Part shown: positions 26,884 to 51,418 of the stretch, piece after piece
How positions within the stretch are numbered: position 1 is the stretch's first letter
Layout: each line of letters starts with the position of its first letter
Origin: Natribaculum luteum
GTDB taxonomy: Archaea; Halobacteriota; Halobacteria; Halobacteriales; Natrialbaceae
Direction of reading: 5' to 3'
DNA length: 64,000 bases
NCBI RefSeq assembly: GCF_023008545.1
Contig: NZ_CP095398.1
Coordinates: 186,001 to 250,000 of the forward strand
Notes under the pieces: model-generated
Told to the model about the DNA's origin: nothing
The model's database searches: none
Seen by the model: only the letters and a program-made list of their open reading frames with translations
Translations under genes and position numbers: made by a program

Positions 26884-27039
26884 CCAGACTTCCGGTCGCG
26901 ACGAAACGGTGACCGGGCGTCGGTAGATAAATCACACTATGACCTGGCTTCCATCGAAACACGATCTGCCATCGGAGTCCAGTTCATATCGTCTTCGGCC
27001 ACTGTTGTGAGAACAGCAGTGCTATCGAAACAGTTCGGA

Positions 27040-27542: not shown

Positions 27543-27740
27543 GGGAGATGTATTAGAACAATTGAAGTGAATTCCTCGGCGATGATTACAATGTACGACC
27601 TGTTCGTGTAAAACAAAATAGCATCCCAGGTGACTTGATATACCCGAACTCTATTCTAGGATCGATCGGTCGTCATCTTTGGCTTCCGACTTGACGACCC
27701 GCTCGCGCCGCGCGAGAGAAAACGGATCTCGCCAGCCTCA

Positions 27741-28640: not shown

Positions 28641-28665
28641 AGTTGCTCCTCAGTTTTCAGACGTT

Positions 28666-29997: not shown

Positions 29998-30147
29998 ACG
30001 AAGATAATGGGATAGCAGTAGTATAAAGTTTTTCGTGAAAGATGTCTTCTTAAACGTGAGTCAGTTCCACTACCAGAGTTCGAACATAGTATAGTGAAAT
30101 ATTGCCGGTTGAAATAATATTATTACTCTGCGTTCGATTCTTCATGT

Positions 30148-31137
30148 ATGTCCGTACTCTTGCTTTCCAGCGAGGAGGTCGACGAAAACGCAACGATGGA
30201 ACGTGTTATACCGGCAGTCGAAGACGCGTTCGCAGCCTACGAGCGCGGAACTGCACAAATGCCTGCAAAGTCATACATCGATCTCGATCGGTACAACGGA
30301 GACTTCCGCTCGATGCCGGCGTACATGGATGCTGGAGAGTGGGATGCTGCCGGTATCAAGTGGGTTAACGTCCACCCGGACAATCCGGACCAACACGATC
30401 TCCCGACGGTGATGGGGACGATGATTTATTCTGATCCAGAAACGGCACTTCCGCTCGCGATCATGGACGGGACAGCGCTGACTATGAAGCGGACCGGTGC
30501 CGCTGCCGCGGTCGCGACCGACTACCTCGCGGTCGAGGACGCGACCACGCTTGGAATCGTCGGTGCAGGAATCCAGTCATACGCGCAGGTCGACGCGATC
30601 ACGAAGATCCGGCCGATTCAAGAAATCGTTGTCAGCGATCCCGATAACGAACGCATAGCCGACTTTATCGACCACTTCAGTGATCGGTACGACGTCCAGG
30701 AAGGGATGATCCAAGACGCTGCGTCGTCCGACGTCCTCTCTACGGTAACGCCGGTCAGAGACCCTATCGTCTCCCTCGACGACGTTGGTGACCACACACA
30801 CATCAATGCGATGGGGGCAGATGCCGAAGGAAAGCAGGAACTCGCTACCGAAATTGGTCTCGAGGCCAAGTTGGTCATCGACGATCACGCCCAGACCACG
30901 CATTCGGGGGAAATCAACGTGCCGTACTCGTCGGGCGAACTAACCGACGACGAGATTTACGGCGATCTCGGAGAGATCATCGTCGGTGAAAAAGAGGGGC
31001 GACGAGCGGACGACGGTATTTCTGTCTTCGATAGCACCGGGTTGGCGATTCAGGACGTGGCAGCGGCACACGTCACCTACCAAAACGCACGGCAGAGCGG
31101 GAGCGGTACGGAGTTCGATTTGCTCTCCACATCGTAA
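30148..31137 (+). CDS. Ornithine cyclodeaminase/mu-crystallin family protein
   Basis: This 329-residue NAD(P)-binding enzyme has the family Lys/Arg region GIKWVNVHPDNP, MDGTALTMKRTGAAAAVATDYLA, the Rossmann motif GIVGAGIQSYAQ (about residue 133), and the C-terminal FDSTGLAIQDVAAA with the catalytic Asp of ornithine cyclodeaminase. Members cyclise ornithine to proline, or act as alanine dehydrogenase (archaeal AlaDH) or ketimine reductase, so the activity is open. It is divergent from the aminotransferase gene; the TATA-like AATAATATTATT (about 30112-30123) precedes the start by about 25 bases. Confidence 0.85.
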   Translation: MSVLLLSSEEVDENATMERVIPAVEDAFAAYERGTAQMPAKSYIDLDRYNGDFRSMPAYMDAGEWDAAGIKWVNVHPDNPDQHDLPTVMGTMIYSDPETALPLAIMDGTALTMKRTGAAAAVATDYLAVEDATTLGIVGAGIQSYAQVDAITKIRPIQEIVVSDPDNERIADFIDHFSDRYDVQEGMIQDAASSDVLSTVTPVRDPIVSLDDVGDHTHINAMGADAEGKQELATEIGLEAKLVIDDHAQTTHSGEINVPYSSGELTDDEIYGDLGEIIVGEKEGRRADDGISVFDSTGLAIQDVAAAHVTYQNARQSGSGTEFDLLSTS

Positions 31138-31306
31138 CCGGCGGACGCTCGCGTTCGGATCGCGATGCGCGATCTGACGGAGATGCTATCGACCCGAACG
31201 ATCGCAGTAGCTGTTCTCGAGGGGGTTTGACGGAACGCCACGAATCCTCAGAGTATCGAAACAGTTTCATCGCCCACGAACAACCTGCTGGCGAGTTCGA
31301 AGACGA

Positions 31307-32200
31307 GTGGTTGGGTCGGATCGCGTACCGCGAACTGCCTTCCGATTGACCCGAGCGGATGAAGAACGTCTATCGATCATTCAGGGGCAACTCGCGGAGT
31401 ACGTCGACTGGGCCGACGTCAAACCAGCGACTCGCGACCAACTAGAACGGACCCACCCAGCCGATCACGTGGACGACCTGCGGGACTTCTGTGCTGATGG
31501 CGGCGGCCGACTCACGGCCGAGACCGGCGTCACGAGAGGAGGCATCGCGGCCGACCATGACGAAATAACGGCGGTCGTAACGTTCGACGGCACGATTAGG
31601 GCCGATCGGGTCGTCGCCACGGCCGGCAGGCAACCCGCAGTCTCGTTACAGAGTACGTTCATTGACTGCGTATTCCTTCCGGTGGCAGAACACGGTCTTC
31701 AATTTCGGCGGGGAACTCGGAGACGACTTCTCGACGGGGCGGATCCGGTGATGGAACGTTACTGACGGTCGGAACGCACCACGTCGGCGGCGAGTACCGC
31801 ATTACGGATTCCGGTTCGGTCAGTAATTCTGTCAGGGAATCGTTTCGACACCACCCAGGACGGTGGTTCCGAAACGCTCCAGTCGGTTCAGGGACGTTCG
31901 ATTCGTATGCGGTGATCTGTTCCCAACCGGCGACACGACCACACCGGATAAGTGTCCCATCATAGATATCCGCTCGAAGCACCAGACGATTTCGTCGTGA
32001 CGACCCCCACATCGGCGAAATCAGGATTTCGACTGTCGTCGGTGCGGCTGTTCGTGAACTGGCTGCCGGGAGCATGGCACCGTTTTTCCTGGGGACGTAT
32101 CAACTCGGATGATTCGGTTCGCGTGACACTGACTTCGAGCTCGAGCCACACTACGGGTCGACGGCGTTCGTGAGCATGCTGAACCGGACGACTGACGCGA
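31307..32200 (+). pseudogene. Chimeric relic: histone-deacetylase-like N part joined to FAD oxidoreductase C part
   Basis: A frame at 31307-31765 first reads ERLSIIQGQLAEYVDW and HPADHVDDLRDFCADGGG, as near the N-terminus of histone-deacetylase/acetoin-utilisation-like proteins. From about 31540 it switches to ITAVVTFDGTIRADRVVATAG, a stretch of the FAD oxidoreductase type found at 44948, 48095 and 58628. Beyond its stop, broken frames to about 32200 still match that family (for instance a GDTTTPDKCPIID stretch near 31930, compared with GDTATPDERPIHD). The two halves are fragments fused by deletion, and neither can be functional. Confidence 0.55.
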
Positions 32201-32311
32201 TCTCGAGGACCCTGACGCGGCGTTGCGTGAACTGACCGCAGCTACTGGATTGCCGACGAGCGAAATCGCATTCCGTCAGACTCAATATAATAGGTTACTA
32301 TCTATACGCCA

Positions 32312-32944
32312 ATGATACTTGTCCTCGACCTCGAAGTACAACCGGATTATCGCTACCTCGGTCCAAACATCGATCGTCTGCTCCCCGGTGAAACGGAGTA
32401 TCAGGTATTTGTTGACGAGCTGTTTCGTCCCGACTTGGAGCAGTACGACGGGGTCGTTCTGAGCGGCAGTACCGCGAGTGTCTACGACGATGACCACGCC
32501 GACTGGATCGAACCGGCGGCAGAAATCGTCCATCGCTGTCGCGATCAGAAGGTCCCGTTGCTCGGGATCTGTTTCGGTCATCAACTAATCCACGACGCAC
32601 TCGGTGGCGTTGTCAAAGAAGACCGCAGACGGGCCACGTTCATCGAGATTGAGCACATCGAAGACGATCTCGTGCTCGACGGCCTCGACCCTATCGTACC
32701 CGTGTTACACGCTGATTTGGTCATCGAGCCGGGTGACGAACTGGTCACAACCGCACGGACGGCATACAATGACCACTTCTGTAGCCGTCACAACGATGCA
32801 CCGATCTGGACCGTCCAGTTTCATCCTGAGTTCACCGAGCAGATCAAAGACGAGCCGAGTGACTGGTCCGACTGCGATCACTCGTTCGATGACTCGAACG
32901 CGACGCGGGTGCTCGAGAATTTCGCGTACTACTGTCTGGCATAG
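32312..32944 (+). CDS. Class I glutamine amidotransferase (GMP-synthase-like, stand-alone)
   Basis: This 210-residue protein consists of one GATase1 domain that would hydrolyse glutamine and pass ammonia to a partner, or hydrolyse a gamma-glutamyl compound. The catalytic Cys is in LLGICFGHQL (about residue 89), and His and Glu are in VQFHPEF (about 171-173). LSGSTASVYDDDHADW follows the GGxxSVYD pattern of GMP synthase amidotransferase domains. No synthetase partner is adjacent. An AATATAATAG box at about 32283-32292 lies at TATA distance from the ATG, suggesting a leaderless gene. Confidence 0.85.
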   Translation: MILVLDLEVQPDYRYLGPNIDRLLPGETEYQVFVDELFRPDLEQYDGVVLSGSTASVYDDDHADWIEPAAEIVHRCRDQKVPLLGICFGHQLIHDALGGVVKEDRRRATFIEIEHIEDDLVLDGLDPIVPVLHADLVIEPGDELVTTARTAYNDHFCSRHNDAPIWTVQFHPEFTEQIKDEPSDWSDCDHSFDDSNATRVLENFAYYCLA

Positions 32945-33320: not shown

Positions 33321-35174
33321 TTACGTGACGAGGGAGTCTGGAGCGAGCGGCGCGATGTCCAGCCGCTCGAGCGTTTCGCGGGTGGGTTTCCCGTCCGACG
33401 TCCAGCCGCGTTGGTCGTAATACTCCTCGAGCATCGTCTCAAACTCGGCTTCGCTGATGGCGTTCCCGTCTGCGGGCCCGCCACGCTCAAGAGGTTCGGT
33501 GAACCGTGGCGGTAACGCGTCGTCATCCCTGTCGAATTCCTCACGAACGTTGAACAACCGCGTCATGTTCCAGGCGCGTTCACCAACCACATGGAGATCG
33601 TCGACCGCTACGTCGTACGCGAGCGCGTTCAACCATTCGCAGACTCTCTCATAGTTGTACGCAGTAAACGAGCACGAAACCATGCTATAGGTCAGCGCAG
33701 TTTCGTTTTGCTCCTCGATGACGACCGATGCGTGACCGTCGGTGTCGAAGGGATCCCGCTCGCCACCCAACGCGTCCGATCCGATGGGGAACGCGCGCTG
33801 GTGACATGCCCCCCGATCGGACGTCGCATACGCCAGCGCCATACTGAACGATGCACGCGGCTCGTACGCGGGGAGTTCGAGACCCTTGATCTGGACCGCA
33901 GCCTCGCGAGCGTCCGGATGCCCGTCACAGAGGCACTCGGCCGCGCGCGCGGTCCCTTCCGCGAGATCGTCGCCGATTCCCTCGCGGTGACTGATTTTCC
34001 GGATGACCTCGGCAGCCGCCTCGGCGTCGCCCCAGCGCAGGTCGGCGTCAACAAGTCCCTTTTCCGTCACCTCCATCAACCACGAAAGGACGTTTCCGAG
34101 CGAGATCGTATCCATCCCGAGCGTATCAGCGAGGTTCGCCAGCTCCGTCACTTCGGTCACGTTCGTGATATCCGTGTTCGCACCCATCATGCCGATCGTC
34201 TCGTACTCCGGTCCCCAGTCGACGTTCGCGTTCGGGAACGCACCTCCGACGTCGCTCTCCTCGAAGTCGACGACGTGACCACACGCGACCGGACAGCCGA
34301 AACACGAATCGGTGTCGACGTGTCCTGCCTCGAATGCGTCGATGTTCAGGTCGTCGACGTCTTCGATCATTCCGCGGGACCAGTTGTGCGATGGAAGCGC
34401 GCCGACCTCTTGCGTCCAGTCGACGATGAGCTGTGTGCCGCCGTTTCTCGCCCACGAGACTTCGTCGTCGGTCCCGAGACGCTGGGTGTGTTTGACCTTC
34501 AACTCCTGCACGTTCGGCGCAGTCGGCGGTGAGTCACCGGTCGCGACGACGGCCTTCAGATTTTTGGACCCCATGACGGCACCGACTCCGCCACGACCCG
34601 CGTGGTGCGTGCCTTCGTCGCTCGATATCGTCGCAAACTTGACTTGGTTTTCGCCCGCTGGTCCGATACAGGCTGTCTTCGTTTGCTTTCCGTCGAACTG
34701 CCGCGCAGTCTCCTTCGTGTCGAGCCCCCACAGATCGGTCGCGTCCTCGAGGGTTATCTCCCCCTCGGTGATACGCAGCGTCACCGGTTCATCCGCACGA
34801 CCCTCGATCGCGATCGCGAGGACGTTCGGAAGCGCGTACCGAACCATCGTCGGGAAGTGGCCGCCGGAATACGAGTCGACGAACGCCCCCGTCAGTGGTG
34901 ATTTCGTGACGGCAGCGTACCGCGAAGTACCCGGGGCGAATCCCGTGAGCGGCCCGAACAGGAAATAGAGATTGTTCTCGGGCGAAAGCGGGTCCGTTCC
35001 GGCCTCGACCTCGTCGAGTAACAGCGCTGCTCCGAGCCCCTTCCCGGCGATGAACCGGTCCCGGTACTCCTGTGGAATCGTTTCGATCGTAACCTCTCGC
35101 TCGCTGAGATCAACTCTGACGAGTTTATCCAACTGCGTTACCTGTTCTGGGACCTCGACAGTTGCCCGTGACAT
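33321..35174 (-). CDS. Aldehyde:ferredoxin oxidoreductase family protein (tungsten)
   Basis: This 617-residue enzyme oxidises an aldehyde to its acid with ferredoxin as acceptor, using a tungsto-bispterin and a 4Fe-4S cluster. The N-terminal domain has VRVDLSEREVTIETIP, GAALLLDEVEAGTDPLSPEN and TGAFVDSYSGGHF, typical of the AOR pterin-binding domain. The cluster Cys motif is DSCFGCPVACGH (about residue 285-296), and the later Cys is in DRGACHQRAFP. The start at ATG 35174 gives MSRATVEVPEQ; two more codons upstream are in frame. It is single and convergent with its left neighbour. Substrate unknown; aldehydes from amine catabolism nearby are candidates. Confidence 0.9.
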   Translation of the reverse strand: MSRATVEVPEQVTQLDKLVRVDLSEREVTIETIPQEYRDRFIAGKGLGAALLLDEVEAGTDPLSPENNLYFLFGPLTGFAPGTSRYAAVTKSPLTGAFVDSYSGGHFPTMVRYALPNVLAIAIEGRADEPVTLRITEGEITLEDATDLWGLDTKETARQFDGKQTKTACIGPAGENQVKFATISSDEGTHHAGRGGVGAVMGSKNLKAVVATGDSPPTAPNVQELKVKHTQRLGTDDEVSWARNGGTQLIVDWTQEVGALPSHNWSRGMIEDVDDLNIDAFEAGHVDTDSCFGCPVACGHVVDFEESDVGGAFPNANVDWGPEYETIGMMGANTDITNVTEVTELANLADTLGMDTISLGNVLSWLMEVTEKGLVDADLRWGDAEAAAEVIRKISHREGIGDDLAEGTARAAECLCDGHPDAREAAVQIKGLELPAYEPRASFSMALAYATSDRGACHQRAFPIGSDALGGERDPFDTDGHASVVIEEQNETALTYSMVSCSFTAYNYERVCEWLNALAYDVAVDDLHVVGERAWNMTRLFNVREEFDRDDDALPPRFTEPLERGGPADGNAISEAEFETMLEEYYDQRGWTSDGKPTRETLERLDIAPLAPDSLVT

Positions 35175-35292
35175 TACCAATCATACTCTATTCAGCGTAT
35201 AAATAAGTACCCGAATCACCCACTGTGGACGACCGGTCGCCCGTGATTGCCGACGACTCCTGTGGCTGGACAGAACCGAACGGTCGACTGGG

Positions 35293-35967: not shown

Positions 35968-37902
35968 TCAATTCTTCCAGGCGTCGAGCAGGTCCTCCTT
36001 CGATTCGAGTGAGGAGTCCGGGAGGGCGTGATTGATGACGTACGACCCCTCTTTGTGTTCGTTGTTCCACATATCCTCGTGCACGCTCGGCGTGTCCGCC
36101 CACGCGGATAGATTGGTCTTCGGAACGTCGATGGTCCCCTGTTCGATCTCCTCGTGTAACTTCATCACCTCGTAGGTGTTCTTCATGTGGGTCCCGAAGA
36201 TTTCCGTCGTCGGCATGATAATCCGACGCTGACGCATCCACACCTGCGGAGCGTAGAAGGAGTAGCGCTGGCCGGACATGTCCTCGGAGTAGATCACCTC
36301 TCCCTTGAAGGACGAACACAGCATGGTAGATACGCCGAGGGTGTTCTGTCCGGCCCGTTCGAAGACGACATCGGGATTTCCACGGGGATTGTTCGGAGTC
36401 TTCAGGAGGCTTCCGACTGCCTTCCCCAGCGGCTTGAACATTTTGTTCGAGTACGCACCAACGGTAGGGAGAAGGTCGGACGACTCCGGCCGTGGAAGTT
36501 CCGGAAGCGAATCGACGAACTCGAAGTCGTCGTCTTCCACCGCCAGGGTCTCGATACTCACTGCTCCTTCGACGTCGTACTCGGAGTCGACGTACTCGGC
36601 CTGCGCGTCCGTCTCTGTGACGACTGCGACCCGACAGAAATTATCGAGGGCGCTCTCGATGGCGGCTTCGCCGACGGCGTCTTCGGGTCCGGTGACCTGT
36701 TCGGGTGTCCCGTACCAGACCATGACACCTTGGCCGGGCCGGAGATTCGTGCGGTCGTACATCTCGTCCGGCGTGGATTCTTTACCTTTTCCGATGAACG
36801 CCATCTCGTACCCGGTGGAGGCGCCGAAGAACGTGAGACGTCCGCCGTCATCGAGCAGTTGATACGAACGGGAAAACGCTGCTTGACCGGCGTGCGAGAC
36901 GACGTAACCGGCGAGGTCGCCGTCGTTTTTATCCCGGAACTCTTTTAGGAGGGGGTCACCTGCGGCCCGCCAGTCCTCCCATTTGTCGGGGTCGTGGGGA
37001 ACCATACGCATGGCGTCCGCATGCTCGTCGCTCTTGCGGTTGATGTACGCGTCCGCACCGGCGGAGAGGGCACGTTCGCCACGTTCGGGACTGGAGACGA
37101 GTCCCGTTATGTCCAGATCGCGAGTGTCCGCGAGGACGACCGTGTCGCGCCCGGTCCCCGTCGAAGCACCCTCGACGAAGAGATTCGATCCGGTTTCGAC
37201 GTCGAGCGTGTTGAAGAGCGCCCGGTGGATCGTCCCCATCGTCAGCAGATAGCTGCCAGCTTCCTCCAGATTGAGCGGCGCGGGCGGCTCGAACAGCTGC
37301 GTGGCCTGCGCGAGCATGAACTGCTGGTGGGAGCCGTCGGGGGTTTGGTATCCCTGGATACGAAAGTTGGCAGCCATGGGGTCGCGCCCCACCTCCGGTG
37401 AGAACGCGTCGTACTGCCCGGAGTAGATGGTGACCAGGTCACCGACTTCGAAGCGGCTGTCGGCTGAGGCGCCGTCGCCCATGTCCGTGACGATTCCGAG
37501 GCCGCCCGAGCCTGTGATGTGCCAGTCGCGGTCGTGATTACCGAACGTCGAAACCGGGATCCCCGTTATCGCCCAGACGTCGTTGTAGTTCACTTCGGAG
37601 GTGAGCATGTAGACCAGCGCCTCGTTCGGGCCTGGTTCCTCAACGGGAATGAGCAGCTCTTTTTCTGCGCCGTCACCGAGTGGTGTCCCGTGGTTTGGAT
37701 TCCCGTCTTCGTCGCTGTTGATGCCCCACGCGAACTGATAGTCGGGGATCGGTGTCTCGTCGGGTAAGAAGGGAGAACCGACTTCAAGCAGTTCGTCGGC
37801 TTCGACCAACTCTTCGATCACCTCGTCACTGGGTTCGACGCCGACGGTTACGTCTTTACAGTCACTGACCTCATCGTCCGCTGCTGAGTTACCGTCTGTC
37901 AT
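35968..37902 (-). CDS. Crotonyl-CoA carboxylase/reductase-like medium-chain dehydrogenase
   Basis: This 644-residue zinc-independent MDR-family protein aligns with enoyl-CoA carboxylases/reductases. It has EALVYMLTSEVNYNDVWAITG (the N-Y-N region), GSGGLGIV, VGDLVTIYSG, a nucleotide-binding stretch VEGASTGTGRDTVVLA, and the C-terminal FERAGQNTLGVS and FGTHMKNTYE (the conserved His). It is longer than typical Ccr (about 420-450) because of an extended N-terminus and a middle insertion (about residues 290-510). In GYQTPDGSHQQF the pair expected to be Phe-Glu in carboxylating enzymes appears as Tyr-Gln, which suggests simple reduction of an enoyl-CoA (for example acryloyl- or crotonyl-CoA). It is divergent from the enoyl-CoA hydratase-like gene. 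Confidence 0.75.
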   Translation of the reverse strand: MTDGNSAADDEVSDCKDVTVGVEPSDEVIEELVEADELLEVGSPFLPDETPIPDYQFAWGINSDEDGNPNHGTPLGDGAEKELLIPVEEPGPNEALVYMLTSEVNYNDVWAITGIPVSTFGNHDRDWHITGSGGLGIVTDMGDGASADSRFEVGDLVTIYSGQYDAFSPEVGRDPMAANFRIQGYQTPDGSHQQFMLAQATQLFEPPAPLNLEEAGSYLLTMGTIHRALFNTLDVETGSNLFVEGASTGTGRDTVVLADTRDLDITGLVSSPERGERALSAGADAYINRKSDEHADAMRMVPHDPDKWEDWRAAGDPLLKEFRDKNDGDLAGYVVSHAGQAAFSRSYQLLDDGGRLTFFGASTGYEMAFIGKGKESTPDEMYDRTNLRPGQGVMVWYGTPEQVTGPEDAVGEAAIESALDNFCRVAVVTETDAQAEYVDSEYDVEGAVSIETLAVEDDDFEFVDSLPELPRPESSDLLPTVGAYSNKMFKPLGKAVGSLLKTPNNPRGNPDVVFERAGQNTLGVSTMLCSSFKGEVIYSEDMSGQRYSFYAPQVWMRQRRIIMPTTEIFGTHMKNTYEVMKLHEEIEQGTIDVPKTNLSAWADTPSVHEDMWNNEHKEGSYVINHALPDSSLESKEDLLDAWKN

Positions 37903-38215
37903 GAGTCGTTGTGACGTTTATGACTAACTCCCCATTTATATAATTTTTGCAATCATACACTCCGTAGACACAATAGCTGGCACAGCGTGAGCTCGTGAAA
38001 CCATCTTGTTGTTCGGGATGACTCGGTTGAGGTCCTCGTGGGGATTGCGTCCTCGCTGGCTCCATGCCGGCAGCAGCGACAGCAGTGTCCGTGGACGAAC
38101 ATTCATGGCGGAGATCGGCCTTGACGTAGCGTTCTCTACCGGACCTGACCCGTCATCATCCGTGAGAATTAGGACCACCGAAATCTATAAGAATGCTGTT
38201 TCGGAATACTTGTCC
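37903..38215. promoter_or_regulatory. Divergent promoter region
   Basis: This gap separates the reductase (minus) and the hydratase-like gene (plus). On the minus strand an AT-rich block at about 37934-37950 is a probable TATA region for the reductase. On the plus strand ATCTATAAGAA (38182-38192) is a probable TATA box for a leaderless start at 38216. An open frame from 38006 runs through this gap into the hydratase but its codons look non-coding. Confidence 0.5.
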
Positions 38216-39016
38216 GTGCTCGACTACGAATACCTAGAGACAGAGACGGATGATCGCACACTGACAATCACTCTTGACAACGAAGAGTCCCTCAACGCGC
38301 TGAACATCTCCCTGCGCGAGGAACTGGAGGACGCGCTCCTGACCGCGGAAGACGACGACGAGATCCGTGCCGTAGTCCTAACTGGAGCGGGAAGAGCGTT
38401 CTCGTCGGGATACGACTTCGGCGAGGAGGGAATCGAGACGATGGACGATCTGATAAAATCGTCGTACACGCACCTCGATACCATCTTCAACCTGAACCTG
38501 CCAGTGATCGCAGCCGTGGATGGATACGCGCTCGCAGGCGGATGTAATCTGGCGCTGGTATGTGATCTGACAATCGCGACGGAGCGTTCTGAGTTCGGTT
38601 TTCCAGACGTTCACATGGGCGAACTTCCACCGCGTCTGATCTTGCCGTTCGTGACTGACTCGCTGAAACAGGCACGGGAACTCCTGTACGGCGGCAAGCA
38701 CATCGACGCTGACACAGCCGCGAAGATGGGGCTGGTGAATCGAGTCGTCGAAGATGAAGACGCGCTCGAGGCGGCAGTCGAGGAAGAGGTTTCCCACATC
38801 AAGAAGACCCCCAGTTCGGTCGTGAAGCTCCTGAAGGACACGCTCAATGATATCCAGGAGACGCAGGGATATCGCTCGAACTCGGCAGGACAGATCGATG
38901 AGTACCTCTTTGCGGTGACCTCCGAAACCGAGACAGCCCACCGCTTTCACGAGATCGTCGATGAAGAGGGTGTGAGCGCGGCTATCGAGTGGATGAACAC
39001 CACGGAGAAGGACTAG
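38216..39016 (+). CDS. Enoyl-CoA hydratase/isomerase (crotonase) family protein
   Basis: This 266-residue crotonase-fold protein acts on a CoA thioester. The oxyanion-hole segments are AFSSGYDF and ALAGGCNLAL. The two catalytic Glu residues of true enoyl-CoA hydratases (in GGCELA and the FGxPE motif) appear here as Asn (GGCNLA) and Asp (FGFPDV), so ordinary hydration is doubtful and another crotonase reaction such as isomerisation or thioester hydrolysis is possible. I chose the GTG at 38216, which sits 26 bases after a TATA-like TATAAG; the longer in-frame ATG starts at 38006 or 38105 would add about 40-70 residues of unlikely composition. Neighbours are the enoyl-CoA reductase and an acyl-CoA synthetase. 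Confidence 0.78.
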   Translation: MLDYEYLETETDDRTLTITLDNEESLNALNISLREELEDALLTAEDDDEIRAVVLTGAGRAFSSGYDFGEEGIETMDDLIKSSYTHLDTIFNLNLPVIAAVDGYALAGGCNLALVCDLTIATERSEFGFPDVHMGELPPRLILPFVTDSLKQARELLYGGKHIDADTAAKMGLVNRVVEDEDALEAAVEEEVSHIKKTPSSVVKLLKDTLNDIQETQGYRSNSAGQIDEYLFAVTSETETAHRFHEIVDEEGVSAAIEWMNTTEKD

Positions 39017-39199
39017 CGGAAGAACGCTACAGTATCCCTGACGAGCCGTAATTACTGCTCAGAAGTGGGAGAGTCATCGTACACACACCATCATGGGCGA
39101 TGGTGTCGCGTCGACAACGCTAAATCCGCGCCGGAGTCCATTTTCTTGTGAGCCGTGTCCGTCAAGACTGCAATCGCTCGTCAGCGTTTGTCCTGAGAG

Positions 39200-41323
39200 T
39201 CACTCGGCGTCGAGTTCGAGGCTCGCGTCGAGTACTGACAGTCCGTCCTCGGTGGCGACCACCGGATTGATGTCCAGTTCTTCAATTGCGGGATTGTTCG
39301 TCACGAGATCGGAGACGGACAGGAGGAGTTCGACCAGTTCGTCTCTATCGACTGCTGGGAGGTCGCGTGGGCCGTCGAGTAGCGCCTGGGCTTCGATATC
39401 GTCTATCATCGTTCGGGCGTCGTGCTCGGTGACCGGGAGTGCTCGAAACGCGACATCGTCAACTACCTCGACGAGGGTTCCACCGATTCCGCAGGTGACG
39501 ACCGGTCCTATCTCAGGATCGTTCACCACGCCCACCAGCAGTTCGACCCCGTTCGGAACCATCGGGGAGACGAGGACACCCTCTACTTGGGCGGACGGAT
39601 CGTAGTCGCTTACGCTGGTACGAATCCGGTGGAACGCGTCGCGAACTCCCTGTTCATCCTCAATATCCAGCTCGACGCCGCCAGCTTCGGTCTTGTGGAC
39701 GATGTCCGGCGACGAGATCTTCATAGCGACAGATCCGTCGAACTCGTCTGCAATGTCGACGGCTTCTTCGGCCGTTTCCGCAAGTTCAAACGATGTCACT
39801 GGGGCACCGTGATCTGCGAGCATTGTCTTGGATTCGAACTCGGAGAGAGTCGTCCGGCCGTCATGGACCGCGTCGGTGACGACAGGGCTCGCGTTCTCGT
39901 TGGTATCGAGACTGAAATCCGACTTTTCGTCTACGTGAGACAGGTGGTCGCCGTACTCGGCGAGCGCTCTGAGTGCTGCCACCGACGTGTCGATCTGTTC
40001 GTACACCGGCACACCGTTCTTTGAGAGGTGACTCAGCGCAGTCGAACACCCAAGTTCCTCCCACATACTGTTGAATACGATTGGCTTATCGACCTCGTCG
40101 ACCAGCGCCGTGAGCTTGCGAGCGATGGCGATATCGCGTTCGGGTTCGTCTTCGTCCCAGCACTCCTCGTAACCGAGCGCCGCTCCCGTGATCAGGAGGG
40201 CGTCGATGTTCGGATCCTCGAGGATGTGACGTGCGGTGTCGTACCACATCGTCTCGTGGTCAGACAGCCCCATCACGTCAACCGGATTGGTAAGGTTTGG
40301 TGACAGTTCGTAGAGTTCTTCAAGCGTTTTCTGGGTCTCCGAGGTCAGATTCGGGACTTCAAGGCCGGCTCGTTCGATGGCGTCAGCCGTTACCGTCGCG
40401 TGACCTCCCCCGTCTGTGAGTACGGCCACATTTGGACCGTCCGGGATCGGACAGGTTGTCAGTGCCTCAGCAACGGGAACAAGTAAGTCGATGTTGTCGA
40501 GAGGGTAGACCCCAGCCTGTCGGTAGGACGCTTCCACCACGTCGATGTTGCCAGCCAGTGACGCGGTATGGGACTTGGCGGATTCCCTTCCTTCAGCGGT
40601 TCGTCCGGATTTGTATGCCACGATCGGTTTCTCGCGCGAGACGCTGCGGGCCTCGCGGAGGAAGGCTCGTCCATCGTTCATCCCCTCGACGTACGCGACA
40701 ACGCCGTCAGTGTTGTCATCCTCGCCGAGGAACTGGAGGTACTCGTGGAACTCGAGGTCGGTCTCGTTCCCGACACCAATGTTGTAGCTGAACCCGACGG
40801 TTCCCCTGTCTTCGGCGTCGATCGAGAGCGCTACCCCCATATTCCCGGACTGGGTTACCATTCCCAATTGCCCGGGATTCGTCCGGACGCCGCCTAACAA
40901 GTGGACGTGCTGATGGACGAAATCGGCACCCTGGATGTTGGGCCCGATGATCCGTACGTTGCTTTCTTCGGCGGCCGCGGCGAGTTCCTCCTCGAGGGCT
41001 TCTTCACCTACCTCACCGAATCCTGCCGTGTTGATCACCGCACCCGCGATGCCCGCTTTGCCGCACTCACGGATCGTATCAGGGACGTACTGCGCAGGGA
41101 TCGCGATGAACGCCAGGTCGACCTGCTCCGGGATGGCGAGAACCGAGTCATACGTCGGCAACCCTAGTACTTCCTCGTATTTTGGATTCACCGGATAGAT
41201 GTCGCCTTCGTATCCCCAGCGTTGGAGATCCGATAGCGTGGTGTGACCGCGTTTTTTCGGGTTTTGGGATGCTCCGATGACGGCAATAGCTTGCGGATCG
41301 AACAGTCGTTCGAGTTGCTCCAT
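39200..41323 (-). CDS. ADP-forming acyl-CoA synthetase (acetate-CoA ligase family), fused alpha-beta
   Basis: This 707-residue enzyme interconverts acyl-CoA, ADP and phosphate with the free acid, CoA and ATP. The CoA-binding domain begins FDPQAIAVIGASQNPKKRG (about residues 9-27). The ligase-CoA domain carries the phosphorylated His in AEGRESAKSHTASLAG. The C-terminal ATP-grasp domain has VAMKISSPDIVHKTEAGGV and EELDINPV. The frame opens at 41443, but a TATA-like TCTATTAG on the minus strand (about 41348-41355) points to the ATG pair at 41326/41323. Substrate range is unknown. Beside the enoyl-CoA reductase and crotonase it could activate a short-chain acid such as acrylate, propionate or 3-hydroxypropionate. 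Confidence 0.88.
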   Translation of the reverse strand: MEQLERLFDPQAIAVIGASQNPKKRGHTTLSDLQRWGYEGDIYPVNPKYEEVLGLPTYDSVLAIPEQVDLAFIAIPAQYVPDTIRECGKAGIAGAVINTAGFGEVGEEALEEELAAAAEESNVRIIGPNIQGADFVHQHVHLLGGVRTNPGQLGMVTQSGNMGVALSIDAEDRGTVGFSYNIGVGNETDLEFHEYLQFLGEDDNTDGVVAYVEGMNDGRAFLREARSVSREKPIVAYKSGRTAEGRESAKSHTASLAGNIDVVEASYRQAGVYPLDNIDLLVPVAEALTTCPIPDGPNVAVLTDGGGHATVTADAIERAGLEVPNLTSETQKTLEELYELSPNLTNPVDVMGLSDHETMWYDTARHILEDPNIDALLITGAALGYEECWDEDEPERDIAIARKLTALVDEVDKPIVFNSMWEELGCSTALSHLSKNGVPVYEQIDTSVAALRALAEYGDHLSHVDEKSDFSLDTNENASPVVTDAVHDGRTTLSEFESKTMLADHGAPVTSFELAETAEEAVDIADEFDGSVAMKISSPDIVHKTEAGGVELDIEDEQGVRDAFHRIRTSVSDYDPSAQVEGVLVSPMVPNGVELLVGVVNDPEIGPVVTCGIGGTLVEVVDDVAFRALPVTEHDARTMIDDIEAQALLDGPRDLPAVDRDELVELLLSVSDLVTNNPAIEELDINPVVATEDGLSVLDASLELDAE

Positions 41324-42148: not shown

Positions 42149-43740
42149 GATGGAGAGTAGTTGGATAGCGATTTGCCGTCAGACCAATTTCGTAGCAGTC
42201 TCATGAATGGTCTCTCAATGGTGAGCTAAGTGTGTCGCTGGGGATTGGCGGATCGCCGGAATCGATAGATTCCGCGATCCGCACCGAGAACAGTACGTAT
42301 CTCCGCCAGCAACTCGTCGTCCAAAAGCTTGAGAACCGTCTTCTCCGTCGCCAACTCGCTGCACAGCAACAGCAGATAGAGGAACTTGAGGCGAGTCTCA
42401 AGCGGTACGAAAACCCAAACACACCACCCAGTAAGCAGGGTGGTGCGGCTGGATCACCTGGCAGCGACGACAGCGACGAGGAAGAAAACGAAAACCAGAA
42501 AGACGACGCTGGCGGCGACGCTGACGCCGCCAGCGACTCGTCCCCTGGACGTAACGAAGGTCACGAAGGGACAACTCGACCGCCACCTGAACCAGAGGAA
42601 ACTATCCGAGTCGATCAGGGATATTGCCCAGACTGTGAGCAAATCCTCTCTAACCCGGACAGCTACGTCTCACGGACGATTATCGACATACCTCTCCCTA
42701 TTCCAACCACTGTCGTCGAGTACGAACTCGGCAAACACCGCTGTTCCTGTGGAAACGAAGTCGTTGCTGAACATCCTGACTGCCCGAAAACCGGGCGGTT
42801 TGGGCCAAATATCATGGCCCAAACCGCCCTCGGTAGGTTCCATCAGCGACTTCCAAACCGCAAACAGGCGGAGCTGTTTGACTGGGAGCTCGATACACCC
42901 ATCTCTTATCGGACGATCTACAACCTGACCAAGCGGGTCGCAGACCGGCTGCGACCCGCGTATGACGATTTCAAAGCCCGTATTCAGGAAAGTGATGTCG
43001 TCTACTGCGATGAAACGGGCTTTCCTGTTGACGGAGAGCAACACTGGGCGTGGACGTTCGTTACTGACGAAGAGGTGCTGTTCTGGGTTGATGAGAGTCG
43101 TGGAAGCCAGGTGTTAGAGGACGTCCTCGACGAGGAATTCGCCGAGGACTCGACGTTCAGCTGTGACGGTTGGTCAGCGTATCCGAGCTATCACACGAAG
43201 CTCCAGCGGTGCTGGGCACATCTGTTGCGGGAGGCGGAGTACGTTGCTGAACGGTACGAGGAAGCAGAGAGGTTATCTGCGGAGTTACACGCTCTTCACG
43301 ACGATTTAACGTCATTCGACGAGGAGGCTCTGTCCGCCTCCGCCCGCGAGCAAAAGCGGGCGGAGGCGTCGTTACATCTGGAAGGCCTGATCAGGGAAGA
43401 CCACGAGGCACAGGAGGTTCAGAAGCTGATCGAGAAGATCAGGAACGGGTTAGGGCACTGGCTGACGTTCGTTACAGAGCCAGACGTAAGTTCGACGAAT
43501 AATCGCGCAGAGCGCGCTCTGCGCGAGCAAGTTGTGCTTCGGAAGATGTTCCGGACCCTCCGCTCAGCCGAAGGGGTCCAGATTCACGAGACGATCACGA
43601 CCATGTTGGCCACGTGGAAACGGCGAGGACTAGATCCGCCCGAACAGCTCCAGTCCATCTCGGTGGGAAAGAACTCAGATCAGGATGAGAGGTATCACTG
43701 GCTGGTGAATTCTGGTCACGCTATCCAACTACGATGGAGA
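42149..43740 (+). mobile_element. Intact IS66-family insertion sequence with target duplication
   Basis: The element spans 42157-43732 (1576 bp). Its ends are perfect 14-bp inverted repeats: GTAGTTGGATAGCG (42157-42170) and CGCTATCCAACTAC (43719-43732). It is flanked by an exact 8-bp duplication, GATGGAGA (42149-42156 and 43733-43740), the length usual for IS66. This shows the insertion is young. It encodes one transposase and no accessory TnpA/TnpB proteins, as in other haloarchaeal IS66-like elements. Confidence 0.95.
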
Positions 43741-43821
43741 TTCCGTCATCAAAGATTATCTCATCAGCCATTACTCCCGGAGATAAAGAAAACGGGGAGA
43801 GTAGCATTTCACGTCTCGTGA
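42232..43821 (+). CDS. IS66-family transposase
   Basis: This 529-codon DDE transposase has an N-terminal coiled-coil region (RQQLVVQKLENRLLRRQLAAQ, about 25-60), a low-complexity acidic linker, and a zinc-binding part (YCPDCEQ and RCSCGNEV). The catalytic domain has the first Asp in VVYCDETGFPVDG, the second in SCDGWSAY and the Glu in NNRAERALR. Codon 501 starts at the last base of the element, so the final 29 residues and the stop codon come from flanking DNA. The natural C-terminus in other copies probably differs from site to site. Confidence 0.95.
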   Translation: MSLGIGGSPESIDSAIRTENSTYLRQQLVVQKLENRLLRRQLAAQQQQIEELEASLKRYENPNTPPSKQGGAAGSPGSDDSDEEENENQKDDAGGDADAASDSSPGRNEGHEGTTRPPPEPEETIRVDQGYCPDCEQILSNPDSYVSRTIIDIPLPIPTTVVEYELGKHRCSCGNEVVAEHPDCPKTGRFGPNIMAQTALGRFHQRLPNRKQAELFDWELDTPISYRTIYNLTKRVADRLRPAYDDFKARIQESDVVYCDETGFPVDGEQHWAWTFVTDEEVLFWVDESRGSQVLEDVLDEEFAEDSTFSCDGWSAYPSYHTKLQRCWAHLLREAEYVAERYEEAERLSAELHALHDDLTSFDEEALSASAREQKRAEASLHLEGLIREDHEAQEVQKLIEKIRNGLGHWLTFVTEPDVSSTNNRAERALREQVVLRKMFRTLRSAEGVQIHETITTMLATWKRRGLDPPEQLQSISVGKNSDQDERYHWLVNSGHAIQLRWRFRHQRLSHQPLLPEIKKTGRVAFHVS

Positions 43822-44047
43822 AACGCCAAAACGTCCTTCAAACTGCTTGTTAGCGCATCGAGTAGAGATAACAACACACATAACATTACAACCATATGTC
43901 TGTAATGGCACTGGCAACTCGACTATGTATGTGCGAAAATTTCTCTATGTGTGAAACCATGGTGTTTTCGCGGGGCCTACGGTTCACACTGGGTGGCAGG
44001 ATCGGTCAGCAGGGGAATATTCAAACGTCCAACGCGGTTGGTGGGGT
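43741..44047. other. Intergenic region after IS66
   Basis: The first part continues the pre-insertion sequence and includes the read-through tail of the transposase frame (to 43821). The part from about 43960 may hold further decayed bases of the FAD oxidoreductase relic that becomes clear at 44048. A short open frame at 43896-44099 has no recognisable product. Confidence 0.4.
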
Positions 44048-44790
44048 GGCGTGGAGTTCACTGATTGCGGCTGGGTCGATCTCTACACGTACACGATGAC
44101 GCTAAGAGCGGACGCGGAGGGCGCTGGCGCACGCTATAAGACGGGAACGGAAGTGGAGGCAATCGAGACCGAAGACGGCTCGGTGACTGAAGTACGTGTG
44201 GACGGAGATACTATCTCGTCGGAGCACGTGGTATGCGCGACGGACTGGCGTACCCGAAACCTCCTCTCGGACCTCGTCGAGACCCCGATCCGCCCGTTCC
44301 GCTGGCAAACAGTGAACCAGGAGGTGGGCCGAGCATTCGGCGAGGAGTTCCCGATGGCGGGGATCAACACTCCAGAAGGTACTGGCGCACGGAGCACAAC
44401 GGGGACCTCCACGTCGGCGGTGGCACGTACTCCGTCTAGAATTCCGGTAACGTCTGCAGTACAATCACCGAGAATTTCCGCAAAGTGGTCGCGGAGACCA
44501 TCGTAGATCGCGTCGAGAACGTCGAAGACGCTCGAATCAAAAGCGAGGACTGTTGTCCGTCGGGCGACGCGGCCACGCCCGACGACCTTCCGATCATCGA
44601 TGCGCCCAGCGACGCACCCGATAGCCTTGTCGTCACAATCACGGGCCTCGTCGGAGGCATCATGTGCTCGCCGTTCGTTGCGACAGCTGTCCGTTCACTC
44701 GTAACTGAGGAGACCGCGCCGTTTCCGGCCGATCCACACCGTCTCGCTCGGCTCCAGGACCGTCGACTGACTTCGAGCCCGACTACGTCA
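44048..44790 (+). pseudogene. FAD-dependent oxidoreductase remnant
   Basis: The N-terminal FAD-binding third is absent. From 44048 the relic reads VEFTDCGWVDLYTYTMTLRADAEG, then ETPIRPFRWQTVNQEVG. After a frameshift near 44375 it continues as WRTEHNGDLHVGGGTY, and after more damage EDCCPSGDAATPDDLPIIDAP and AVRSLVTEETAPFP. Each block has a counterpart in the intact gene at 48095-49273, and the relic looks closest to that copy. It lies just upstream of another intact paralogue. Confidence 0.85.
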
Positions 44791-44947
44791 CCGGGAAAAA
44801 GAGTCCCCAGGGGAGTGTACCGGTTGACGCTGAGTACGTCGGGTCATTCTCGTGAACCTTCCGGACAGACGGCGGTCAGCGTCTCACTACTGATCGTCGT
44901 GAGGTACGGTCAGCTTTTATAATACTGGGGATCCCATACAACCAGTG

Positions 44948-46123
44948 ATGACAGATTCCGATACAGACTACGATGTCGTCATCGTCGGTGGCGGCGTGGC
45001 CGGCTGTGCCTCCGCGTACCATCTCGCATCCGATCACGACGTCGCCATCGTCGAACGAGGCCAGATCGCGGGCGAGGCGTCCGGCCTGGCGGCCGGACTC
45101 GTCGCACCGACGCTGTTCTACGGTGACCACCCGGACGTCGCGCGGTACGCGAACGAGTGGTTCCGAGCGTTCGACGGTACCCAGAACTTCTCGTATCACG
45201 AACGTCCACGGATCGAGTTTGTCCAGCCGGACAGCAAAGAGATCGCGCGTGGACGCGCCGCAAACCTCTCAGATGAGGGATTCCCCGTCTCGTTCCTCGA
45301 TCCGGAGGAGGTAGAGCAGGAGTATCCGTGGTTCGACGCGTCGCGATTCGCCGGCGCCGTCGAGTACGCGGACACGGGCTGGGTCGACCCCTACGAGTAC
45401 ACTGTATCCCTCCAGAAAGCCGCCGAGGACCGGGGCGTCGATGTGTTCACAAACACGCCGGTGAGCAGCTTTCACGTGGAGGACGGAATAGCAGAGGTCG
45501 AACTGTCGAAGAGATCGCTGTCCGCCGAGTACGTCGTGATGGCTGCTGGCTGGCGGACGCGGGACTTTCTGGCCGAATACGTCCAGCTTCCCATCCGCCC
45601 GTTCCGTCTCCAGTGTGCGATGCTACGGCTGGATGAGGATCTCGATGATACGTTCCCGCTCGGCCGTGTCGCCAGGGAGGAGCTCTATTTCCGTGGTGAA
45701 CTCAACGGCGACCTCCTCCTCGGCGGTGGCGAGTATTTCGAGGAACATCCGGAGGCGATTTCGTCCGGGTCGGGAATCGACGACGAGTTTCGCCAACACG
45801 TTGCGAGTACTGTTCCGACCTTCCTCGACGGGTTCGAACGGGCGGAGTTCGTCGACGGATGGTCTGGCATCGACGCGGCCACGCCTGACACCCTCCCCCT
45901 TCTCGGTTCTTCGGCTTCGCTCCCGGACGAGATCGTAGTCGCGACCGGGTTCAACGGCCTCGGGATGGTGAACTCCCCAGTTGCGGCAGCGGCGGTCAGA
46001 TCCCACGTGACCGGCGAGGATACGCCGTTTTCGCTGGAGCAGTTCGACGTCGATAGATTCTCCGACAGCACCGGAGACTTCGACCTGCGGGGCACGTTCG
46101 AGATGGAAGGTGCTGGTCGATGA
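44948..46123 (+). CDS. FAD-dependent oxidoreductase (DAO/sarcosine-oxidase-like), paralogue A
   Basis: This 391-residue amine or amino-acid dehydrogenase has the FAD-binding motif YDVVIVGGGVAGCASAYHLA at its N-terminus, followed by VERGQIAGEASGLAAG. A DAO-type substrate domain includes GWVDPYEYTVSLQ, and the C-terminal FAD part is TPDTLPLLGSS and TGFNGLGMVNSPV. Family members oxidise glycine, sarcosine, dimethylglycine or D-amino acids. This copy lacks the GDTATPDERP form seen in the other two, so it may use a different substrate. The start is the ATG at 44948, after a TATA-like TTTATAATAC (44915-44924). Confidence 0.87.
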   Translation: MTDSDTDYDVVIVGGGVAGCASAYHLASDHDVAIVERGQIAGEASGLAAGLVAPTLFYGDHPDVARYANEWFRAFDGTQNFSYHERPRIEFVQPDSKEIARGRAANLSDEGFPVSFLDPEEVEQEYPWFDASRFAGAVEYADTGWVDPYEYTVSLQKAAEDRGVDVFTNTPVSSFHVEDGIAEVELSKRSLSAEYVVMAAGWRTRDFLAEYVQLPIRPFRLQCAMLRLDEDLDDTFPLGRVAREELYFRGELNGDLLLGGGEYFEEHPEAISSGSGIDDEFRQHVASTVPTFLDGFERAEFVDGWSGIDAATPDTLPLLGSSASLPDEIVVATGFNGLGMVNSPVAAAAVRSHVTGEDTPFSLEQFDVDRFSDSTGDFDLRGTFEMEGAGR

Positions 46124-46329: not shown

Positions 46330-47847
46330 TCAAAAGGACGGTTCGTCGAGCGAGAGGTTGACCGCTTTCGTATGGGTGTACTCGGCGAGCGTCTCCTTGG
46401 CACACTCCCGGCCGATACCTGAAGCCTTGTAGCCGCCGAAAGGAATTCCCGGCCCGCCGCCATGGTACTCGTTGATCCAGACACTCCCAGCCTGGATGTC
46501 CGCCGCAGCCCGATGTGCCAGTGACGCATCCCGGGTAGCGACTCCCGCTGCGAGGCCGTACTCGACGTCGTTGGCGAGCTCGATTGCCTCGTCGTAGTTC
46601 TCGAAGGTGATGAGACACTGCACCGGACCAAAGATCTCTTCCTGTGCGATCCGCATCTGGTTGTCAACCTGGTCGAACACTATCGGCCCCACGAAGAATC
46701 CCTCACCATCTTCCCGGTCCGGGACACCCTCGCCGTAGACCTGCTCTGCTCCTTCGTCTCGGCCGACGCCGACGTACTTTGAGACCTTGTCGTACTGATT
46801 CCGGAAGGTCAGCGGCCCCATCGTCGTCCCGTCCACGAGCGGATCGCCGGGTTCCCAATCGGCGGCCGCTTCGGTGAAGGCGTCGACGAACTCCTCGTGT
46901 ACGTCCTCATGGACGAGGATGCGAGAGCAGGCGTCACACGACTGGCCAGTGTTATAGAAGATCCCCGCGGCAGAGGTCTCGGCGGCCTGCTCGATGTCCG
47001 CATCCGGGAAGACGACGAACGGCGACTTCCCGCCGAGTTCCAGCGTCACCGGTGTCACGTGATCGGCCGCGGTCTCCATCACCTGTTTGCCTACCGGGAC
47101 CGAGCCCGTGAACGACAGTTTGTCCACGTCTTCATGATCTGTGAGCGGAGTACCGGCCTCCGTGCCGTACCCGTTGACGACGTTTAACACGCCGTCGGGC
47201 AGGATATCTTCGGACAGCTGTGCGGCCCGCGTGATCGACAGCGGTGCCTCTTCCGATGGCTTACAGACGACGGTGTTGCCGGCCGCGAGCGCCGCACCTG
47301 CTTTCCAAGCGAAGAGGTCGATCGGATAGTTCCACGGCAGGATCTGGCCGGCTACACCGTATGGCTCGTTGCGGATGTAGACGTGATTGTCCTCACCCTG
47401 TGGAAGGTGGGAACCTTCGTGGGCCCGTGCGACCGAAACGTAGTACTCGAAGTACTCGATCGCGTCGAGGACTTCATCACGGGCGTACGCGAGCGGTTTC
47501 CCCGTGTCGAGCGATTCGAGCAGCGCGAGTTCGTCGGCGTACTCTCGAATCCGGTCCATCCACTCTCGAATGATCCCGGCGCGGTCAGCGGGTGTCATCT
47601 GTCGCCAGTGTTCTCGGAACGCGGAACGTGCGGCGGATACAGCCCTGTCGACGTCCTCGGCGTCTCCGCGTGCCACGTCGCTGATCGGTTGCGCTACGGC
47701 TGGGTCGATCGTCTCGAACTGGCGACCACTCGACGGGGCGACGGTCCGCCCGTCGATCCAGTGACCGAACGTCGTGTCTGCCGCCGCTCGTTCGATAGCC
47801 TTCGTGTGATTCTCTTCGACGGACTCTGTGAACGTTTGTGAACTCAT
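46330..47847 (-). CDS. NAD(P)-dependent aldehyde dehydrogenase (betaine-aldehyde type)
   Basis: This 505-residue enzyme has the standard ALDH layout: GQILPWNYPIDLFAWK for cofactor binding, SFTGSVPVGK, the general base Glu in LELGGKSPFVVF, and the catalytic Cys in NTGQSCDACSR. The C-terminal GIPFGGYKASGIGRE is typical of betaine-aldehyde and 4-aminobutyraldehyde dehydrogenases. It lies convergent with paralogue A and divergent from the next FAD oxidoreductase, so it could oxidise an aldehyde released by amine oxidation. Precise substrate unknown. Confidence 0.88.
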   Translation of the reverse strand: MSSQTFTESVEENHTKAIERAAADTTFGHWIDGRTVAPSSGRQFETIDPAVAQPISDVARGDAEDVDRAVSAARSAFREHWRQMTPADRAGIIREWMDRIREYADELALLESLDTGKPLAYARDEVLDAIEYFEYYVSVARAHEGSHLPQGEDNHVYIRNEPYGVAGQILPWNYPIDLFAWKAGAALAAGNTVVCKPSEEAPLSITRAAQLSEDILPDGVLNVVNGYGTEAGTPLTDHEDVDKLSFTGSVPVGKQVMETAADHVTPVTLELGGKSPFVVFPDADIEQAAETSAAGIFYNTGQSCDACSRILVHEDVHEEFVDAFTEAAADWEPGDPLVDGTTMGPLTFRNQYDKVSKYVGVGRDEGAEQVYGEGVPDREDGEGFFVGPIVFDQVDNQMRIAQEEIFGPVQCLITFENYDEAIELANDVEYGLAAGVATRDASLAHRAAADIQAGSVWINEYHGGGPGIPFGGYKASGIGRECAKETLAEYTHTKAVNLSLDEPSF

Positions 47848-47890
47848 AGTTCGACAGTGGCGGCGTAAATGTTATCGTATGGGGGTATAA

Positions 47891-48088
47891 TTGTTGGGAT
47901 GCTTCGCCGAGGACGTCGAGAGCCACGTGGGATACTACCGTCGGAGCGACGACTCCATCCGTGTCAGGCCGCCCTCGTTCCTCGATGTGGCGGATCTCCC
48001 GCCCCCGACTCCGCAGTCAGTCGAAGAGGCAACGCTGACAACGGTTCGAGAACCCAAAGAGTTAGGAGCGCGGAATACTGTTACTTGA
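47891..48088 (+). other. Possible coding fragment upstream of paralogue B
   Basis: A 65-codon frame has GC-rich third positions and an acidic product (AEDVESHVGYYRRSDDSI, then PPPTPQSVEEATL), unlike typical intergenic DNA. It ends just before the oxidoreductase start at 48095 and lies in its promoter region. It may be the tail of a deleted gene. I do not recognise a family. Confidence 0.25.
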
Positions 48089-48094
48089 GTACCT

Positions 48095-49273: not shown

Positions 49274-49443
49274 ACGCGAATCTTTGCCACTCTCCGAATT
49301 GGACCCCCCGAATCACGCCAGTCACGATACCCCCTCGTGAGTCGCTACTGCGGTCGGATCTGGTCGCGCTCGCGATATCTGTCCTCCGTTCGACCGAGAC
49401 TATGAAAACACTTAATAATGATACAACATATATTCCTGTGAGT

Positions 49444-51185: not shown

Positions 51186-51418
51186 CCCGGATCGCTGGGT
51201 TGAGAGCCGCGTCTGATGGATACCGTCGGTGAACCGTTCGAATGAGGAGAAACTAGTCGGCGGCACCGTATGGGCGGTTTTGCTGGCACAATATAGTCGA
51301 AACGTATCGAAGCCGGGAGAGTTGTATCTCTCCGACGACAAAACGAACAAACGTGGGGAATCGCCTCCGAGGAACCGAGCCAACATCCGGCGTCGAAGAG
51401 ACAACGCGGTCGAACCAG

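Follow-up and report, generated by a model that had tools for sequence, protein, structure and literature searches.

A stand-alone reductase of the propionyl-CoA synthase type beside an altered crotonase and an ADP-forming CoA ligase in a haloarchaeon

The stretch of DNA analysed here (the window) comprises 64,000 nucleotides of Natribaculum luteum, corresponding to positions 186001-250000 of contig C2, an 862-kb replicon in a 4.6-Mb haloarchaeal genome (G000; handles beginning with G and L stand for genomes and loci, respectively). Within it lie three neighbouring genes, encoding a reductase related to one domain of the large fused enzyme propionyl-CoA synthase (PCS), a crotonase-fold protein and a CoA ligase:

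35968..37902, minus strand: stand-alone PCS-type enoyl-CoA reductase (ECR), 644 aa; match to 6eqo residues 1226-1839 (E 5e-190) and AlphaFold model compared with 6eqo_B
38105..39016, plus strand: crotonase-fold protein lacking the two catalytic Glu residues, start uncertain; PF00378, 162 bits
39200..41323, minus strand: ADP-forming acyl-CoA ligase (ACD type); domain, NCBIfam and PDB matches

The reading frames of all three genes are uninterrupted. The reductase and crotonase genes diverge, about 200 bp apart, and the crotonase and ligase genes stand tail to tail. The crotonase gene ends at 39016 (+) and starts at 38105 or further in, within a frame opened by a TTG at 38006, while the ligase gene (39200-41323, -) starts with an ATG and has an alternative TTG at 41443. 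Given three open frames and the recurrence of the pattern in relatives, this three-gene arrangement is not a product of chance.

By sequence, fold and phylogeny, the reductase is a PCS-type ECR rather than an odd carboxylase. In phmmer searches, its residues 31-642 matched residues 1226-1839 of PDB chain 6eqo (E 5e-190, 636 bits), the trifunctional PCS of Erythrobacter sp. NAP1, with 48-49% identity to its ECR domain, whereas the match to the carboxylase/reductase Ccr (4gi2) was far weaker (E 3e-49, 171 bits). An AlphaFold model built from 29 sequences (pLDDT 89, pTM 0.87) resembles 6eqo_B with a TM score of 0.92 (normalized to the query) and a root-mean-square deviation of 2.0, with the Ccr structures ranking next. 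The initial annotation had described a long, Ccr-like reductase with an extra segment of about 200 residues, and this description holds: the Ccr profile TIGR01751 gives 214 bits, under its equivalog cutoff of 378.55, and the protein has about 200 residues more than 4gi2. Since it matches 6eqo over its whole length in both sequence and fold, however, the extra segment is common to PCS. PCS itself is a single chain of ~1800 aa that combines an AMP-forming ligase, a crotonase with the Glu/Glu pair and an ECR; in the window, the ECR stands alone, as a 644-aa protein and not a trifunctional one-chain PCS, next to a separate ADP-forming ligase and a crotonase with Asn and Asp at the Glu positions.

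The additional ~200 residues probably represent a second Rossmann copy whose glycine motif has been lost, although this origin is not proven:

36790..37191, minus strand: cofactor-binding Rossmann half of the ECR, about residues 238-371, with a GASTGTG motif; predicted strands and helices, profile match to the second copy
36223..36735, minus strand: extra segment, probable second, degenerate Rossmann copy, about residues 390-560, without a GxGxxG-like motif; predicted strand and helix order as in the first copy

Two lines of evidence, the predicted secondary structure and a weak profile match, underlie this interpretation. The predicted order of strands (E) and helices (H) is E240-244, H249-260, E264-269, H272-281, E285-288, H305-325, E331-336 and H340-348 in the cofactor domain, and E392-397, H409-420, E424-429, H432-441, E446-449, H477-500, E512-514 and H522-528 in the extra segment. 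A profile comparison of the two copies covered 124 columns (E 4.9e-4, probability 32%), and a shorter one, of residues 300-375 with 490-560, gave an E value of 0.11.

The CO2 pocket of KsCcr consists of N81, F170, E171 and H365, according to an excerpt of PMC10966969. We aligned KsCcr through chain 6na4, whose numbers are the native ones plus 4, and located the counterparts of these residues by alignment:

37345..37350, minus strand: Y185-Q186, counterparts of KsCcr F170-E171
37582..37584, minus strand: N107, counterpart of KsCcr N81, kept
36187..36189, minus strand: H572, counterpart of KsCcr H365, kept

The Tyr-Gln pair had initially been read as a departure from the Phe-Glu expected of CO2-binding enzymes. 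The two positions do correspond, but the expectation of Phe was mistaken, since Ccr 4gi2 also has Tyr there, and the notion of a special change in the pocket has to be given up: among 101 rows of PCS-type ECRs, some of them copies of one genome, Tyr occupies the Phe position in 101, and the position of E171 is filled by Glu in 69 and by Gln in 32, 19 of the Gln rows coming from long fused frames. Tyr-Gln is thus a family variant and no mark of a special enzyme. The pocket Asn is kept in all 100 rows that have a letter at this position, and the His in 101/101. Nine of the ten stand-alone haloarchaeal loci described below have Gln and one (G074) has Glu. The window ECR therefore shares with Ccr (4gi2, KsCcr 6na4) the core of the medium-chain dehydrogenase/reductase (MDR) family, two of the four KsCcr pocket residues and the Tyr of 4gi2, with Gln in place of the Glu that would complete the pocket set of Asn, Phe/Tyr, Glu and His; Ccr, in contrast, has Glu171, lacks the second Rossmann copy and functions in carboxylation. 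Judged by its family, the window enzyme would reduce acryloyl-CoA with NADPH.

The crotonase-fold protein likewise deviates from its canonical relatives in a conserved manner, and the early observation that it lacks both usual catalytic Glu residues was correct. Asn and Asp take the places of the two catalytic Glu residues of 3h81, as located in an alignment of relatives:

38546..38548, plus strand: Asn in place of crotonase Glu144
38606..38608, plus strand: Asp in place of crotonase Glu164

Asn and Asp occur at these positions in 17/17 distinct loci (>=45% identity). In a comparison of the crotonase profile with the PDB, the five alignments listed all show Glu/Glu. The residues His94, Asn119 and Asp139 (counted from base 38192) do not vary among 14 aligned crotonases, and ELPP stands in place of the glycine-rich hydratase loop that follows the second Glu. 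Judged by these residues, the protein falls outside the canonical enoyl-CoA hydratases. Altered crotonases recur next to ligases of this type: each of nine related ligase loci (L089-L097) has a Glu/Glu crotonase and an Asp/Phe crotonase flanking the ligase. The altered member is probably not the hydratase. Most of these nine loci also contain ABC transporter genes and some a nitrilase-family gene; several of the neighbours, including the ABC transporter and an Lrp-like regulator, were named by eye.

The third protein carries CoA-binding, Succ-CoA-ligase-like and ATP-grasp domains as well as the phospho-His, which identifies it, by its sequence, as an ADP-forming acyl-CoA synthetase (ACD), in agreement with the initial annotation. 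Two sites were located by alignment:

40568..40570, minus strand: H292 (numbering of the 747-aa frame) in an SHT motif aligned with the phospho-His loop
40166..40171, minus strand: Y425-E426, a Tyr-Glu pair in the putative substrate loop

The loop reads Tyr-Glu in seven of 14 haloarchaeal ligases and Tyr-Gly in the other seven, the Tyr-Glu set being the ligases near an ECR, a BCCT transporter gene or an Asn/Asp crotonase. These sets may be no more than two clades, and a cation-binding role of Tyr-Glu is a guess. The best NCBIfam and PDB relatives include the CoA ligases for 3-hydroxypropionate (3HP) and 4-hydroxybutyrate (4HB), although the 3HP-CoA ligase model gives 443 bits against a cutoff of 1300.

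ECR matches at E<=1e-60 occur in 19/391 Halobacteria genomes, with the short form in eight (G000, G074, G245, G290, G355, G071, G126 and G022) and the long fused form in 12, one of which (G309) is cut to 1560 aa; G000 has both. A search of the phylum returned 5/392 genomes, all of the same order. Together with two further copies on two Haladaptatus plasmids, the eight genomes yield ten stand-alone loci. In nine of them, spanning several haloarchaeal families, the ECR has a CoA ligase as its neighbour; the ligase is ADP-forming in six (window, L031, L032, L037, L179, L180) and AMP-forming and divergent from the ECR in three (L034-L036). The Asn/Asp crotonase is present in five, identified by sequence in the window, L031, L032 and L179 and by annotation and position in L180, whose crotonase and ligase were scored from the record annotation and the identity of its layout with that of L179. 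All three genes thus occur together in 5/10 loci. The longest-ORF rule used to pick open reading frames (ORFs) in the fetched loci hid some crotonases, which a later comparison recovered. As the genes are linked in relatives, the lack of linkage initially named as refuting evidence did not appear. A betaine-type BCCT transporter gene is found in 4/10 loci (L032, L037, L179, L180). In Haladaptatus, the gene order is IclR, crotonase, ligase, EamA, a Rieske-type (SRPBCC) protein and ECR, followed by a second crotonase (Glu/Glu, other strand), BCCT and an FAD oxidoreductase; Haloferax marinum (L032) has most of this layout in common. The best NCBIfam match of the Haladaptatus Rieske oxygenase is glycine betaine monooxygenase (151 bits, cutoff 670). 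In L034-L036, from three species of one genus, the ECR stands beside the haloarchaeal malate synthase AceB (830 bits and over the cutoff in L035), an isocitrate-lyase-like gene, the AMP-forming ligase and a Na+/H+ antiporter-family gene; the NCBIfam matches of the L035 ligase copy that was scanned include 3-(methylthio)propionyl-CoA ligase (522 of 822 bits).

We reconstructed a quick tree of 66 rows, after 35 near copies or duplicates had been dropped from 101, and rooted it at its midpoint without an outgroup. Nine stand-alone haloarchaeal ECRs form one clade (SH-aLRT 100), and 18 haloarchaeal fused PCS group with it at 97, apart from the bacteria. The first branch of the stand-alone clade (support 88, not starred) is G022, a 956-aa fusion of a Glu/Glu crotonase with an ECR, and the position of this fusion under the midpoint root suggests that domains were lost stepwise, the ligase domain before the crotonase domain. 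A complete fused PCS of 1811 aa, with a canonical Glu/Glu crotonase domain and 51% identity to the window ECR, is encoded outside the window on the same contig (L009:9187-14622) and belongs to the sister clade. Its neighbours encode an acylating aldehyde dehydrogenase (SauS-like, 584 of 600 bits), a HIBADH-like (2-hydroxy-3-oxopropionate-reductase-like) protein, an Fe-alcohol dehydrogenase and an MmdA-like carboxyltransferase; in a sister species (L013), a methylmalonyl-CoA mutase gene is present there too.

Building on the family, fold, gene linkage, residues and phylogeny described above, we consider it about an even bet that the window harbours a re-partnered PCS reductase module making propionyl-CoA or a near relative. 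The ECR domain of PCS would have survived as a separate enzyme after loss of the AMP-forming ligase domain and then the crotonase domain, and the freed reductase would have acquired a separate CoA ligase as its new partner. For the window module, we propose that the ADP-forming ligase would convert a short carboxylic acid into its CoA thioester, that the Asn/Asp crotonase would turn the thioester into an enoyl-CoA through an elimination or an isomerisation, as opposed to an ordinary hydration, and that the ECR would use NADPH to reduce this enoyl-CoA, most likely acryloyl-CoA, to propionyl-CoA without fixing CO2. A short enoyl-CoA, and acryloyl-CoA above all, had been proposed at the outset and, given the PCS type of the reductase, is kept as the best guess for its substrate. 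The starting compound is probably a short, perhaps zwitterionic acid. Since the fused PCS and its neighbours on the same replicon suit 3-hydroxypropionate, the split module probably serves another acid; an acid of the betaine or sulfonium type is an appealing candidate in view of the BCCT and Rieske genes near the ECR in relatives.

Several observations weigh against this model. Its substrate is one that we infer from the enzyme family. G022 has no ligase nearby, L037 combines a ligase and a transporter with no crotonase, and the loci are not independent, L179 and L180 being near copies and L034-L036 coming from one genus. A ligase-crotonase pair with 81-89% identity occurs without an ECR on contig 3 of G245, implying that the pair can work alone, and 11/14 genomes with the crotonase family (E<=1e-65) have no stand-alone ECR. 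In G355, G071 and G126, the ECR adjoins glyoxylate-cycle genes, with no pointer to propionyl-CoA. Finally, the order of fission depends on one basal sequence with a support of 88 in a quick, midpoint-rooted tree.

An alternative that we regard as unlikely, yet worth keeping in view, is a betaine- or carnitine-like module, in which the ligase would activate a quaternary-ammonium or sulfonium acid imported by BCCT, and the crotonase and ECR would interconvert an enoyl-betaine-CoA without acryloyl-CoA, by analogy with the action of CaiC, CaiD and CaiA on carnitine. The transporter in four of the ten loci, the Rieske oxygenase in L032 and Haladaptatus and the FAD oxidase in Haladaptatus fit this idea. 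However, no BCCT gene lies near the window module, both BCCT genes of the genome being on contig C1, another replicon; a C4 betaine is bigger than the C3 substrate of PCS; and no equivalog cutoff was reached. The carnitine system comprises an AMP-forming ligase, a CoA transferase and an acyl-CoA-dehydrogenase-type reductase; the window ligase and reductase belong to other families.

With somewhat lower probability, it is tempting to speculate on a so far undescribed haloarchaeal breakdown route for an osmolyte-like C3 zwitterion, such as beta-alanine betaine or dimethylsulfoniopropionate (DMSP). The ligase would form the CoA ester, the Asn/Asp crotonase would act as a new C-N or C-S lyase releasing acryloyl-CoA, and the PCS reductase would clear this toxic intermediate as propionyl-CoA; the genes for BCCT uptake and Rieske/FAD oxidase demethylation in Haladaptatus and Haloferax marinum would then belong to the same route. 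The ATP-dependent DMSP lyase DddX (7cm9) belongs to the ADP-forming ligase superfamily, has its phospho-His in the same place and matches the window ligase with 217 bits. DddX is marked by a cation-pi cage of Trp391 and Phe435 and by Glu432 as the base. In a weak local alignment (E 0.57), Trp391 aligns with Met391 of the window ligase, and Glu432 and Phe435 fall into a gapped loop, where the catalytic Glu432 has no confidently aligned counterpart. A BCCT neighbour occurs in several loci of both DddX (excerpt of PMC8163506) and window-type modules.

It is comparably doubtful that the genes form no single pathway, with the ligase and crotonase serving amine or polyamine breakdown and the ECR acting as an independent detoxifier of acryloyl-CoA. 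The ECR-less ligase-crotonase pair in G245, nine further ECR-less loci in which such ligases pair with other crotonases, and the plentiful amine-catabolism genes in the window are in line with such an arrangement, but it leaves the CoA ligase that accompanies the ECR in 9/10 loci of several families unexplained. A split 3-hydroxypropionate pathway, in which the ligase would form 3HP-CoA, the crotonase dehydrate it and the ECR reduce acryloyl-CoA, is less probable still. It would parallel the Nitrosopumilus-type system, in which an ADP-forming 3HP-CoA ligase, a crotonase acting as 3HP-CoA dehydratase and an MDR acryloyl-CoA reductase are separate proteins, and would combine it with a PCS-type reductase; the window ligase matches 9y43 with 345 bits and counts 3HP-CoA and 4HB-CoA ligases among its relatives. 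The crotonase, however, lacks both Glu residues used in dehydration, the ligase stays far below the 3HP-CoA ligase cutoff, and the same replicon has the fused PCS, with genes for aldehyde and hydroxyacid dehydrogenases next to it. That the reductase is a true enoyl-CoA carboxylase/reductase, yielding methyl- or ethylmalonyl-CoA, is very improbable, and this reading was rejected on the PCS match (636 against 171 bits for Ccr, with the TIGR01751 cutoff unreached) and the pocket counts, with Gln as the Glu171 counterpart, despite the retained N107 and H572 and the latent carboxylating activity of PCS described in an excerpt of PMC10176493.

The initial suggestion of a route undescribed in haloarchaea was too strong. 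The chemistry is not new to this group, because fused PCS already occurs there, including in this genome, and an excerpt of PMC6631277 proposes a 3-hydroxypropionate route to propionyl-CoA for Haloferax mediterranei. What appears to be new to haloarchaea is the split, re-partnered form; among the open-licence papers that literature searches listed, none deals with a stand-alone PCS-type ECR, as judged by title or abstract opening. PCS is noted for confining toxic acryloyl-CoA within a single large enzyme. A clade without both partner domains, a living crotonase-ECR intermediate and a new ADP-forming ligase form a natural series on the PCS fusion, which could test why PCS was fused and what lets it come apart. 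The conserved Asn/Asp crotonase constitutes a family without an assigned reaction; the loci with a BCCT gene suggest that haloarchaea use osmolyte-like acids in a way that has gone unexamined.

Broken PCS-related genes were also seen. Contig C2 contains a third, broken ECR copy (L010:9434-10177; residues 325-580, 77-79% identity, 4 TAA in the match), with no crotonase, ligase or aldehyde ferredoxin oxidoreductase (AOR) remnant within L010. Bacterial PCS genes in L114, L142, L117, L105 and L107 are broken within the crotonase domain, near domain residue 170. In Chlorobiota, the break leaves two ORFs separated by 490-705 bp; in L117, the ORFs overlap; and in Acidobacteriota, the C-terminal part alone is present, at loci that lack a ligase domain. 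An Rfam scan for introns in L114, L142 and L105 returned nothing.

Downstream of the ECR, an AOR-family gene (33321-35180, -) was considered as a fourth module member and left out because it has no relative among the ORFs of the compared loci. On the other side, an IS66-type transposase gene adjoins the ligase gene, followed by fragments and one whole copy of a gene of the FAD-dependent, amine-oxidase-like DAO family (42232-46123), which gives the cluster the look of one disrupted by insertion and duplication:

44945..46123, plus strand: FAD-dependent amine-oxidase-like (DAO) protein, possible accessory gene; a related DAO gene lies between crotonase and ligase in L031

Further out (25870-32944 and 46330-62389), the window is rich in genes of amine and amino-acid catabolism, encoding agmatinase-like, class III aminotransferase, alanine-dehydrogenase-like and betaine-aldehyde-dehydrogenase-like aldehyde dehydrogenase proteins and an electron-transfer flavoprotein pair, together with a PotD-type ABC transporter, DAO proteins and an IclR regulator.

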